DNA from: Bradyrhizobium sp. 170
GTDB lineage: Bacteria; Pseudomonadota; Alphaproteobacteria; Rhizobiales; Xanthobacteraceae
Direction of reading: 5' to 3'
Length of the DNA: 64,000 bases
Assembly: GCF_023101085.1 (NCBI RefSeq)
Contig: NZ_CP064703.1
Coordinates: 4,340,001 to 4,404,000 of the forward strand
This document shows, one piece after another, positions 55,315 to 60,312 of the stretch. Made by a program: the position numbers and the translations under genes. The notes under the pieces were generated by a model, which saw nothing but the letters and a program-made list of their open reading frames with translations, made no database searches and was not told the origin of the DNA. Position 1 is the first letter of the stretch. The number at the start of each line of letters is the position of its first letter.

Positions 55315-58044
55315 TTGTCTGACCCTGAAAATAACACGCCCGGCGAGCCGCCGGAGCCCTCCGATATCCGTCCCGTTTCCATCCTCGACGAGATGAAACG
55401 CTCCTACCTCGATTACGCCATGAGCGTGATCGTGGCGCGGGCGCTGCCGGACGCCCGCGACGGGCTCAAGCCCGTGCACCGCCGCATTCTCTACGCGATG
55501 CACGAGAACGGCTTCGAGTGGAACAAGTCGTACAACAAGTCGGCGCGCACGGTCGGCGACGTCATCGGTAAATACCATCCCCACGGCGATCAGTCGGTCT
55601 ATGATGCGCTGGTGCGTCTGGCGCAGGATTTCTCCATGCGCGTGCCGCTGATCGACGGCCAGGGCAATTTCGGCTCGGTGGACGGCGATACGGCGGCCGC
55701 CATGCGGTACACCGAATCCCGCCTGACCAAGATCGCACAGACGCTGCTCGACGACATCGACAAGGACACCGTCGATTTCCAGGCCAACTACGACAGCCGC
55801 GACCGTGAACCGACGGTGCTGCCGGCCAAATTCCCCAACCTTCTGGTCAACGGCGCCGGCGGCATCGCCGTCGGCATGGCGACCAACATCCCGCCGCACA
55901 ATCTCGGCGAAGTCATCGACGCCTGCGTGGCGCTGATCGACAATCCCGCGCTGACAATCGACGATCTCATCAACATCGTGCCCGGGCCTGATTTCCCGAC
56001 CGGCGGCATCATCCTTGGACGTCAGGGCATCCGCTCGGCCTATCATCTCGGCCGCGGCTCGATCGTGATGCGCGGCAAGGTCGCCATCGACACCATCCGC
56101 AAGGACCGCGAAGCGATCATCGTCACCGAAATTCCGTTCCAGGTGAACAAGGCCACCATGGTGGAGCGCATCGCCGAACTGGTGCGCGAGAAGAAGATCG
56201 AGGGCATTTCCGACCTGCGCGACGAATCCGACCGTGACGGTTTCCGCGTCGTCGTCGAACTGAAGCGCGACGCCGTGCCCGACGTGGTGTTGAATCAGCT
56301 CTATCGTTTCACGCCGCTGCAGACGAATTTTCCGGCCAACATGGTGGCGCTCGACGCCGGCCGGCCGCAGACGATGAACCTGAAGGACTTCCTGACGCTG
56401 TTCATCGCCTTCCGCGAACAGGTGGTGACCCGGCGCACGAAATTCCTGCTTAACAGGGCCCGCGACCGTGCCCATATCCTGGTCGGTCTCGCCATCGCGG
56501 TCGCCAATATCGACGAGATCATTCGTGTGATCAGAACCTCGCCCGATCCGACCACCGCGCGCGACACGCTGATGTCGCGCGACTGGCCGGCCAGGGACGT
56601 CGAAGCGATGATCACGCTGATCGACGATCCCCGGCACCGGATGGCGCCCGACGGCACGGCGCGGCTGTCGCTGGAGCAGGCCAAGGCCATTCTCGAGCTG
56701 CGCCTGCAGCGGCTGACGGCGCTCGGCCGCGACGAGATTTCCGAAGATCTCGACAAGCTCGCGGTGGAAATCGCCGACTATCTCGACATCCTGCGCTCGC
56801 GTGCGCGCGTGCAGGCCATCATCAAGGAAGAACTTGCGGCGGTCCGGTCCGAGTTCGCCACCCCGCGCAAAACCGTCATTATGGAGCAGGAAGGCGAGGT
56901 CGAGGACGAGGACCTGATCCAGCGCGAGGACATGGTGGTCACGGTCTCGCACGCCGGTTACGTCAAGCGCGTGCCGCTCTCGACCTATCGGGCGCAGCGC
57001 CGCGGCGGCAAGGGCCGCGCGGGCATGCAGACCCGCGACGAGGACTTTGTCTCCAGGCTGTTCGTGGCCTCGACCCATACGCCGGTGCTGTTCTTCTCCT
57101 CGAAGGGCCAGGTCTACAAGGAGAAGGTCTGGCGGCTGCCGGTGGCGGCGCCCAACGCGCGCGGCAAGGCGCTGATCAACATCCTGCCGCTGGAGCAGGG
57201 CGAGCGCATCACCACCATCATGCCGCTGCCGGAGGATGAATCCTCCTGGGCCAATCTCGACGTGATGTTCGCCACGACGGGCGGCACCGTCCGCCGCAAC
57301 AAGCTGTCCGACTTCGTCGATGTCCGCCGCTCCGGCATCATCGCCATGAAGCTCGGGGAGGGCGAGGCGATCGTCGACGTGCAGATCTGCACCGAGCACG
57401 ACGACGTGCTGCTGACCGCGGCCGGCGGCCAGTGTATCCGCTTCCCCGTCACCGATGTCCGCGTCTTCACCGGCCGCACCTCGATGGGCGTGCGCGGTAT
57501 CGCCTTGGCCCAGAACGACACGCTGATCTCGCTGGCGATCCTGCGCCATGTCGAGACCACGTCGGACGAACGGTTGGCCTACCTGAAGATGCGCCGCGCG
57601 GTGGCCGGCGAAACCTCGGTTGAGGAGCCTGCGGATGCCGAGGGTGAGGAGACTTCGGGTTCGCTCCAGCTCTCGCAGGAGCGCTACGCAGACATGTCGG
57701 CGCAGGAGCAGGTCGTGCTGACGGTCTCCGTCAACGGCTATGGCAAGCGCACCTCGTCCTACGAATACCGCACCACCGGCCGCGGCGGCAAAGGCATCGT
57801 CGCGATGTCCGTCAACAACCGTAACGGCAAGCTGGTGGCGTCATTCCCCGTGGAGCACAGCGATCAGATCATGCTGGTTACCGACAAGGGCCAGCTGATC
57901 CGCTGCCCGGTAGAGGACATCCGCATCGCCGGCCGCTCGACGCAGGGCGTCATCGTGTTCGATACCGCTGAAGACGAACACGTGGTGTCGGTCGAGCATA
58001 TCGGCGACGACGGGGAGAACGGCGAGAACGGGAACGGCGGCTAG
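55315..58044 (+). CDS. gyrA: DNA gyrase subunit A
   Basis: A 909-residue type II topoisomerase subunit that starts at TTG. The breakage-reunion domain opens [20 protein letters not shown], with the catalytic Tyr132 in [13 protein letters not shown]. The quinolone-determining stretch reads [14 protein letters not shown], i.e. Gln93 where E. coli has Ser83, and Asp97 at the Asp87 position. The C-terminal DNA-wrapping propeller holds the GyrA box [10 protein letters not shown] and a second related [11 protein letters not shown]. The acidic and Asn/Gly-rich tail ends [11 protein letters not shown] second copy of the last 36 codons lies 2.1 kb downstream. Confidence 0.98.
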
Positions 58045-58050
58045 CGCCGC

Positions 58051-58134
58051 CCTCATGGTGAGGAGCGCGCCTCGGCGCGCGTCTCGAACCATGGCACCGG
58101 GGGCCTTATCCTTCGAGACGGCGCAAGCGCCTCT
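58051..58134. repeat. Dispersed repeat, family E, directly after gyrA
   Basis: CCTCATGGTGAGGAGCGCGC, then TCGGCGCGCGTCTCGAACCA, and CCTTCGAGACGGCGCAAGCG. Related to 3751-3820, with blocks in the reverse order. A partly matching stretch also follows the gyrA 3'-end copy (from about 60,240). Confidence 0.8.
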
Positions 58135-58162
58135 TGAGCCGCTTATGCCGACAGCAAACGCA

Positions 58163-58324
58163 TTAGTTCTTTCTGGGCGGCGGTTCGTTCGCTACTTCCT
58201 TTGCCAGTAGCTTTAAATGTTTCTGCTGCCGCGCGTCAGCTTTTGCTGCCGCCGCTTCCGATGCAGCCACGAGACTGCGATAGAGCTTAAGGTTTTGCTG
58301 GCGAATGAAAAATTGATGTTCCAT
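58163..58324 (-). CDS. Small hypothetical protein
   Basis: A 53-residue, Ala/Lys-rich helical protein: MEHQFFIRQQNLKLYRSLVA, then ASEAAAAKADARQQKHLKLL and AKEVANEPPPRKN. A very strong AAGGAGGT sits 5 bp before the ATG, which makes it a real gene despite its size. Similar small proteins occur in Bradyrhizobium; function unknown. It is the first gene in the stretch bracketed by the two gyrA 3' ends. Confidence 0.8.
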   Translation of the reverse strand: MEHQFFIRQQNLKLYRSLVAASEAAAAKADARQQKHLKLLAKEVANEPPPRKN

Positions 58325-58573
58325 AGCTACCTCCTTGAGGGCATGGATTGGATCGCACATTGCGCCCAAGAGAGGGAAGGTCGAGGACGTATTATCTGCC
58401 AGAACGATCGAGGAAGACGACAACAAGTTTGGGCAAGCCGTCACCAACATGGCACTGATATCGCTCAAGCGGTTAGCCGAGCGGCAAGCAGTCATTAAAA
58501 CGGGCACAAGCCGGAATGCCGTCTGAGCGCTCAATAACGATCGCGCTTTGCATCGAGGCTGGCGTGATTCGGT

Positions 58574-58798
58574 TCACGTATTTCGGATGACTGCTCCGTC
58601 ACCAGACCAATCCTTAGGGTCAGGAACGAAAGTATCTGCTACGAAGTTTTTATCGACCGAACCAAACCGGATAACAGTGTGCGTATAAATCCACCCGCCC
58701 GGCACTCTGAAACGAAATATGGTTTCATCATACTGACCGGTGACATGATCTTTAAACACTTCTTCGTGGCTGTGAAGCTTTTGCTCAGGCATAAACAT
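58574..58798 (-). CDS. Small hypothetical protein
   Basis: A 74-residue protein: MFMPEQKLHSHEEVFKDHVT, then GQYDETIFRFRVPGGWIYTH and DTFVPDPKDWSGDGAVIRNT. The FRVPGGWIYTHTVI text suggests a small all-beta domain. No family recognised. The start is uncertain: a GTG at 58846 would add 16 mostly hydrophobic residues, and neither start has a good ribosome-binding site. Base composition is lower in GC than the core genes. Confidence 0.55.
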   Translation of the reverse strand: MFMPEQKLHSHEEVFKDHVTGQYDETIFRFRVPGGWIYTHTVIRFGSVDKNFVADTFVPDPKDWSGDGAVIRNT

Positions 58799-59445: not shown

Positions 59446-59512
59446 CTTGGTCGTCTCCCATATCCGATAGGACCTAGAGACAACCTCGTGCCGATCTAGA
59501 AGGCAAGCAAAA

Positions 59513-59534
59513 CCCGCCGGGGGTGAGCGGCGGG
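59513..59534 (-). promoter_or_regulatory. Hairpin upstream of the cold-shock gene
   Basis: CCCGCCG and CGGCGGG pair around a 8-base loop; on the minus strand it is followed by TTTTGC and lies 68 bp before the start codon. It may be a 5' UTR structure, an attenuator or a left-over terminator. It shares the GTGAGC loop text with the hairpin after the gene. Confidence 0.4.
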
Positions 59535-59694
59535 GCCCGGACTATGGGCTGGTGCCTGCCTTCCTTCCAAATATCCGCGAATTAACTCGCTTTTGAGTTC
59601 CCTGGAGGCGCATACTCGGACAATCACCGCTCCGCCTCCTGGGCATTACCGGTGACAGAGAGTGTTGCGCTCCCGCCTATTCGAGGGAAGCATC

Positions 59695-59940
59695 ATGCCC
59701 CAGTCTCAACGCCTGTCGTCCGTCATTCCATTCGTTGCAATTGAGCGCCCCGCTTGTCCGAAGTGCAAGGCCCCGATGATGCTCGTCAGTATCGAGCTGG
59801 CACGCCCGGGCGTCGACTTGCATAGCTTTGAATGCGCCATCTGCAACCACGCACATACGACCCTTGCCGCGTATGAAGACCCCATGAAGTCCAAGTCCCT
59901 TGGACGCTGGCTTCAAGGCGATTTGCACCCGCCGAAGTAA
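59695..59940 (+). CDS. Small zinc-ribbon-like protein
   Basis: An 81-residue protein with two CxxC knuckles, CPKCKAPM and CAICNHAH, 32 residues apart, consistent with one zinc ribbon: IERPACPKCKAPMMLVSIEL, then GVDLHSFECAICNHAHTTLA. GAGGGAAG precedes the ATG at 59695. Small proteins of this kind are numerous in Bradyrhizobium genomes and have no known role. It is the last gene before the gyrA 3'-end copy. Confidence 0.8.
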   Translation: MPQSQRLSSVIPFVAIERPACPKCKAPMMLVSIELARPGVDLHSFECAICNHAHTTLAAYEDPMKSKSLGRWLQGDLHPPK

Positions 59941-60121
59941 CGTGCGTCGGCGTCAACCGGCGGATTTTGTAGTACTTGAATTGAGGTGGCCCGTAGAATC
60001 GCCCACAGGCCCATGGCTTCTGGCGTCAGCGCGCGATGAAGCCGGAGACGTCGGCGGTGCACCGCCGGAATTGTGCTATGTTTGGGCTTCGAGCGAAGGA
60101 ACAGCGACGATACTAGGCATC

Positions 60122-60235
60122 CGCAGTTCGACCCAGGGCGTCATCGTGTTCGATACCGCCGAGGACGAGCACGTGGTGTCGGTCGAGCATATCGGTGACG
60201 ACGGGGAGAACGGCGAGAACGGGAACGGCGGCTAG
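60122..60235 (+). pseudogene. Duplicated 3' end of gyrA
   Basis: In one frame this reads [20 protein letters not shown], then [17 protein letters not shown] and TAG. From STQGV on, this is identical at protein level to the last 36 residues of gyrA (57937-58044). Five base differences over about 110 bp are all silent, so the copy is diverged rather than recent. No gyrA sequence precedes it. Weaker similarity continues past the stop. It looks like a second attachment-site half or the scar of a recombination with related DNA. Confidence 0.85.
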
Positions 60236-60312
60236 CGCTGCCGTCATCGGGAGGAGCGCCCGGTCGCGCGCCCCTCGAGGCAATTCGCTGGTCGCCGGAT
60301 TTTTGGGAAACA

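Follow-up and report, generated by a model that had tools for sequence, protein, structure and literature searches.

The 3' end of gyrA appears to be a repeated landing place for foreign DNA in Bradyrhizobium sp. 170 and several relatives

Introduction

Bacterial genomes hold many spots of gene turnover without recognisable mobile elements, and the entry of DNA at such spots has mostly been inferred from statistics (Oliveira 2017, PMC5635113). The closest published analogue of the locus described here is found in Vibrio cholerae, where effector-immunity modules of the type VI secretion system (T6SS) are arranged in sequential displacement arrays (Kirchberger 2017, PMC5361080). Capture of DNA with homology at one end has been described as homology-facilitated illegitimate recombination (HFIR), for which circularisation followed by a single crossover is an alternative route (PMC3240628, PMC2884548). 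What we say of these and the other known systems draws on part of each published account. Here we describe the region behind gyrA in a stretch of 64,000 nucleotides from Bradyrhizobium sp. 170 (contig NZ_CP064703.1, positions 4,340,001 to 4,404,000 of the forward strand), hereafter called the window, in which a second copy of the gyrA tail lies downstream of the intact gene. Foreign DNA appears to have landed repeatedly at the gyrA 3' end in this strain and in several of its relatives.

Results

The gyrA tail recurs downstream of the gene

A direct repeat of 156 nucleotides (57932–58087 and 60123–60278, 88% identity) is the longest of four repeat families between positions 57500 and 60800. An earlier note, made from the sequence of the window alone, had claimed that the last 36 codons of gyrA recur here with five silent base changes, and the alignment bears this out: the functional tail (T1, 57937–58044) and the displaced tail (T2, 60128–60235) differ at 5 of 108 bases, all silent, and each consists of 35 codons plus the stop and encodes the same residues. 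T2 sits 2,191 bp downstream of T1, and the partly similar sequence that the note had seen behind the copy is real as well, the likeness to the gyrA end extending to 60278. A search of the strain's own genome with the gyrA tail returned two matches at E ≤ 0.001 among the best 40 of 82 candidates scored. The window tail scored 192 against its own downstream DNA, and reversed-sequence controls from 100 loci scored at most 35; the likeness of T1 and T2 is therefore not due to chance. If all five changes fell on an unconstrained copy, and with a 2:1 transition bias assumed, the chance that all would be silent is 0.0017. Among relatives (genomes and loci are given by our handles, G and L), T1 is closest to G146 (104/108), and T2 to G032 and G229 (104/108 each).

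By ungapped identity T2 starts at 60128; a gapped alignment extends, across a 9-nt gap, to CATCCGCA at ~60117. We take 60128 as the start because the likeness between the window and a locus of the cold-shock gene (csp) type in G024 continues as far as 60127 (84% over 60065–60127). An open frame of 111 codons (59900–60235) spans the joint, reading T2 in the frame of gyrA, and is probably a chance product of GC-rich DNA.

The window gyrA is chimaeric

Over positions 55315–57415, the window gyrA is closest to that of G253 (95.5%, against 94.5% for G216), and between 57,515 and 57,765 it is 96–100% identical to that of G216. In the block 57615–57664, G253, G224, G053, G146 and G030 drop to 58–62%, and G022 holds 86%. 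Maximum chi-square analysis placed a break between 57,471 and 57,606 in 17 of 20 parent pairs, the remaining breakpoints falling at 57,147 (G216/G224) and at ~56,475 (G254 with G053 or G146); 17 of the 20 pairs, a set not identical to the former 17, were reached in at most 12 of 2000 permutations. The window agrees with G216 at 43 of 107 informative sites to the left of 57,492 and at 48 of 53 to the right, a division found in 0 of 2000 permutations. Trees of 20 chosen taxa likewise grouped the window with G253 in the 5' 2.1 kb (0.998) and with G216 in the 3' 560 bp (0.986). Judged from these alignments, the window gyrA is a chimaera with its predicted breakpoint near 57,480 and the gene intact, and parsimony suggests that the window, not the G253 group, received the foreign gyrA end.

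The gyrA genes of G147, which carries an alpha/beta-hydrolase gene (abh) behind gyrA, and of G056 are also chimaeric, with breaks near 56,860 and 56,775. Eight of the 12 tests in this further analysis gave 0 of 2000 permutations; G101, G254, G053 and one G253 pair gave 2, 5, 59 and 1192. Left breakpoints that differ among genomes fit homologous recombination.

An empty site and two modules in opposite order

The earlier note's reading implied relatives in which gyrA is followed directly by the sequence at 60.24 kb, and G053 is such a genome: its gyrA tail runs straight into sequence matching window positions 60128–61032 (89%). In G147, G180 and G253, as in G053, abh is the first module behind gyrA. 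We read T2 plus abh as the older arrangement, in front of which T1 and the csp cargo would have been placed.

The order in the window is gyrA-T1-csp-T2-abh and that in G253 is gyrA-T1-abh-T2'-csp-chaperonin block, so that the csp and abh units are stacked in opposite order, as expected if each newcomer lands directly behind gyrA. The cargo belongs to a 94.4% match over 57995–60010 in G253, where it lies downstream of abh. The strain's own genome has a second csp/zinc-ribbon locus (G000:C1:798492–799685, L151), 97.2% identical to window 59199–59980, which holds the two cargo halves in the other order. A circular intermediate, considered from these reversed halves, is not needed, as the window and G253 share their order at gyrA.

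Displaced gyrA tails lie behind gyrA in several relatives

A pattern search of 265 genomes matched 65 of them, five twice (window, G056, G253, G053 and G101), and alignment found displaced tails in more genomes than these five. The two-copy arrangement occurs in few genomes, which agrees with the insertion that the earlier note had envisaged. A gyrA-tail profile was run on 102 stretches, of which 101, some of them short, lie downstream of gyrA and one is a contig of G056. Remnants were aligned in the window, G101, G022, G254, G253, G053 and G056, with a very short one (~22 bp) in G216 that is less certain, being accepted only for its place behind the abh end. When the tail of each genome was compared with its own 8 kb downstream and judged against the reversed controls (maximum 35, n=100), the scores in relatives were 105 (G101), 73 (G022), 66 (G254), 60 (G253) and 49 (G053); at least six further loci (L072, L089, L204, L065, L074 and L059) scored 36–46, just above the control maximum. 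Two weak candidates, G077 (L100) and G128 (L106), reached ~15 bits by profile and were set aside, their pairwise alignments looking like chance.

The eight remnants start at eight distinct points in gyrA, and no fixed crossover core was found among them. Counted in bp before the end of the stop codon, the starts lie at ~127 in the window (108 without the gap), 70 in G101, 64 in G022, 58 in G254, 51 in G056 (measured with the G146 tail as query), 50 in G253, 43 in G053 and 21 in G216. The cargoes to the left of the remnants mostly differ between genomes: csp, a PMT_2 protein, a chaperonin-gene block (a call that rests on Pfam of the G253 copy), abh (in G253 and G216), a PGA_cap protein, a protein whose Ig-like match falls short of Pfam's cut-off, and an open reading frame (ORF) resembling, by eye, a GAF/HATPase sensor kinase of G030. 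The sequence behind the G056 remnant is, from 116 bp on, that of a flank whose start lies 33–183 bp past gyrA in 13 other loci.

As controls we used eight further conserved genes of this region (527 gene-locus pairs, compared with 101 loci for gyrA); the ppi1-3' and ppi2-5' rows were left out, these genes being paralogues of each other. Displaced 3' ends at ≥ 17 bits were found in 2/527 control pairs and 3/101 gyrA loci, and at ≥ 12 bits in 5/527 and 7/101, one of the seven (L100) being chance. Both control matches at ≥ 17 bits (asd in L204 and h146 in L208) probably represent broken frames of the respective gene itself. Fisher tests on the 3' rows only, which count these two probable broken frames against a hotspot and, at 12 bits, L100 in its favour, gave p 0.03 (≥ 17 bits) and p 0.0009 (≥ 12 bits). 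Overall, the excess of displaced tails at gyrA is real, resting on few events.

Recombination machinery and joints

The strain's own genome has 35 PF00589 matches, the nearest ~784 kb from gyrA, and no PF00589 integrase was found within ~780 kb of the gene. Thirty of its integrase frames (many identical), used as queries, matched nothing in the 102 stretches (1.52 Mb), a search that did not extend to serine integrases; such queries could overlook an integrase that is very distant or of the serine type. Elsewhere in the genome, tyrosine recombinase trios (339, 367 and 442 aa) occur at four places with equal scores (loci L226–L240, G000:C1) and a 330-aa integrase at seven places with equal score (loci L226–L240), which are probably recombinase-in-trio (RIT)-type and other recombinase elements. 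The genome also holds five full-length Ku matches plus partial ones and a Competence match, presumably of the ComEC type; DNA uptake and end joining are therefore possible.

At the abh/gyrA joint of G253, the motif AGCAT is common to both parents. For the joint in the window no clear parent was found, the nearest likeness being that of G024, which reaches 60127. Three other candidates were rejected: a gene transfer agent as vehicle (GTA_TIM, PF13547, was not found in the genome), an RNA element as target (no Rfam match at gathering score in 57500–61500) and a tRNA as target (no tRNA in the window).

Features of the region

The features are collected in Table 1. Of the genes that the earlier note had placed between the tails, the cold-shock gene is now identified by Pfam and the 53-aa ORF is present; the zinc ribbon is still read from its cysteines only. 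At E ≤ 0.001, Pfam gave no match for the ORFs at 58163–58534, 58574–58846, 58875–59078 and 59662–59940, nor for the 53-aa ORF.

Table 1. Features of the gyrA region, in window coordinates
Feature	Position	Strand	Basis
gyrA, essential anchor gene	55315..58044	+	PF00521 E 1.3e-161; six DNA_gyraseA_C stretches
Putative exchanged 3' tract of gyrA, left edge approximate	57480..58044	+	Maximum chi-square breakpoint; discordant trees
T1, functional gyrA tail, last 36 codons	57937..58044	+	Alignment
Palindromic REP-like element behind T1	58045..58129	+	Comparison with G056 and G253; folding
Cargo, probably captured (53-aa ORF, small ORFs, csp, zinc-ribbon-like gene)	58134..60010	.	G253 match
53-aa ORF of the cargo	58163..58324	-	No Pfam match
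Cold-shock protein gene csp	59242..59445	-	PF00313 E 4.9e-25
Zinc-ribbon-like protein gene	59695..59940	+	Cysteines CPKC..CAIC only; no Pfam match at 1e-3 (59662–59940)
Cargo right end, pieces like csp-type loci elsewhere in the genus	60011..60127	.	G169, G024
T2, displaced gyrA tail (scar), homology on to 60278	60128..60235	+	Repeat, empty-site and remnant alignments
Alpha/beta-hydrolase abh, older gyrA neighbour, now displaced	60313..61059	+	PF12697 E 6.5e-10
pcaB-like lyase, truncated by the end of the window; conserved flank to the right of the variable zone	63046..63999	-	Comparison with relatives

The palindromic element behind T1, to which we give the assumed label of repetitive extragenic palindromic (REP) sequence, has a 96% copy behind gyrA in G056 and a 95% copy behind T2' in G253; the folding energy of 58030–58135 is -54.9 kcal/mol (z -2.0). 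At the right end of the cargo, 60011–60058 resembles G169, and 60018–60058 and 60065–60127 resemble G024. The abh end that is conserved in relatives (SRQLVPGG) falls in an ORF at 60581–61018, in a frame differing from that of the 248-aa ORF, and the window abh appears to be frameshifted near its 3' end. Palindromic GTAGCCCGG...CCGGGCTACG elements at 61023–61118 and 61914–62006 bracket an ORF at 61088–61909, and similar elements occur behind gyrA or near joints in several relatives. The name of the pcaB-like lyase is likewise our assumption.

Discussion

We regard it as fairly probable that one-sided homologous capture has used this region as a landing site and that the remnants are footprints of such captures. 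DNA from a related strain, holding the 3' part of gyrA and what followed it there, would have recombined with the resident gyrA on the left, T1 and the cargo arriving together. The right end of the cargo would have been joined illegitimately, without homology, ~108 bp before the resident gyrA end, either directly, as in HFIR, or through self-circularisation of the fragment and one crossover, and T2 with the abh behind it would thereby have been pushed downstream. The remnants in relatives would reflect the same process with other breakpoints and other cargo. Given that gyrA is essential, an event would have to rebuild the gene in order to survive, and if, as we assume, recombination removes long direct repeats, only short tails would persist. 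The chimaeric gyrA of the window, G147 and G056 shows homologous exchange at one end.

A unit flanked by two tails could also move by ordinary recombination, and for the event in the window the two processes are not separable. An illegitimate joint might have made the unit only once, elsewhere, after which tail-flanked cassettes would spread by two-sided homologous recombination, crossing over within gyrA at the left end and within the short tail and the REP at the right. That abh stands behind gyrA with differing right flanks in G053, G147, G180 and G253, that the window and G253 hold the same two units in opposite order, and that T2 with its flank offers ~150 bp of right-hand homology all speak for such cassettes; we nevertheless think this course of events rather unlikely, since seven of the eight remnants are ~70 bp or shorter, which is short for RecA, and no two of the eight start at the same gyrA base. 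A decayed integrase-dependent island in the gyrA 3' end, in essence the shrunken island that the earlier note had proposed, would explain the intact gene, the displaced and diverged 3' end as a direct repeat and the empty site in relatives, as well as the presence of the last ~20 bp of gyrA in all eight remnants. We prefer one-sided capture to an island of the att type because the remnants start at differing places and one att core would give one place. Further, there is no PF00589 match within ~780 kb of gyrA, the 30 own integrase frames match nothing in the 102 stretches, and, in the set tested, the start of the insert is common only to G056 (REP) and G253 (REP plus csp behind T2'). An island is accordingly very improbable, and of the note's interpretation the foreign tail, the displaced old tail and the empty site are supported, and the integrase-type island is not.

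More improbable still is a local event, either an insertion with a long target duplication or a tandem duplication of the strain's own gyrA end followed by divergence. The direct orientation of the tails, the gyrA context that T2 keeps, including the stretch behind the stop, and the own second csp locus, which of the five sequences compared comes nearest to the window csp, would suit it. Set against these are the five T1/T2 differences, all silent, the finding that gyrA of G053 is followed by the sequence that here stands behind T2 rather than behind T1, the chimaeric gyrA, and the same cargo at gyrA in G253; the first three bear out the earlier note's view of a foreign rather than a locally duplicated tail.

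Several observations weigh against one-sided capture as we have drawn it. The tail comparison with relatives leaves the origin of T1 and T2 undecided: T2 matches G053, whose flank it carries, at only 100 of 108 bases and is nearer to G032 and G229. The allele class of the window gyrA also occurs in more distant relatives, and the G253/G053 class could be the foreign one. In the breakpoint analyses, three G022 pairs (384, 346 and 86 of 2000 permutations) and two of the 12 further tests (1192 and 59) are weak or negative. G216 has the exchanged gyrA tract but not the cargo, and tract and cargo therefore need not be one event. In its csp part, the cargo resembles the own second locus more closely than the copy at gyrA in G253 (97.2% against 95.2%), for which reason gene conversion between the window csp and L151, or an internal source for the csp part, is possible. 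Microhomology at the window's own joint, as far as the sequence tells, is uncertain. In G056 the remnant and gyrA lie on different contigs, gyrA ending at a contig edge, and the sequence behind the G101 remnant matched nothing. Finally, every remnant begins in the last ~5% of gyrA; joints falling at random on the right would be expected to produce long partial copies of gyrA as well, so that survivorship must be assumed.

If the remnants are capture footprints, displaced gene ends are physical scars of single captures that record what entered, where the joints lay and in which order, and a scan for displaced core-gene 3' ends could measure one-sided capture in nature. More tentatively, an essential housekeeping gene might act as a general, enzyme-free cassette port, its short 3' end making a tail-flanked unit of whatever cargo is caught behind it, and such units could be stacked, reordered and passed between species by host recombination. 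Were this so, the series of tail scars would record the order of arrivals, and a record of this kind could also be kept by further conserved genes whose 3' ends are tolerant.

Like the T6SS arrays of V. cholerae, the locus has a conserved anchor immediately followed by the newest module, with older modules displaced downstream and the 3' end of an old gene left behind; those arrays likewise use no specific site, and HFIR has been proposed for them (PMC5361080). There, the anchor's 3' end is the effector that diversifies, and displaced genes are retained because they confer immunity (PMC5361080), whereas here the anchor is an essential housekeeping gene, the protein is unchanged and the cargo is unrelated. 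No functional coupling of anchor and cargo was found, T1 and T2 encoding the same residues and the Pfam-identified cargo families being unrelated to gyrase. HFIR shares with the captures proposed here one homologous and one illegitimate end (PMC3240628, PMC2884548), but is known from laboratory transformation and conjugation; the footprint here is natural and recurs at a single gene. Hotspots that are poor in integrases and flanked by recombining core genes also turn over without mobile elements (Oliveira 2017, PMC5635113), and the flanking core gene gyrA recombines here too; unlike the present locus, however, a double crossover in two flanks should, by our reasoning, leave no displaced gene end. 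Orphan 3' ends of Rhs genes form similar strings of displaced 3' regions, there with toxin polymorphism rather than a housekeeping gene (as cited in PMC5361080). Among the papers that our literature searches listed, nothing fitted gyrA or another housekeeping gene as such a landing site. In integron cassette arrays the newest unit stands first and older units are pushed back. The locus resembles them in having its newest unit first (a comparison also drawn in PMC5361080) and differs in having no PF00589 match near gyrA and no fixed site (attC sites were not searched for). Overall, the ingredients are known, and a housekeeping gene as the anchor seems to be the new twist.

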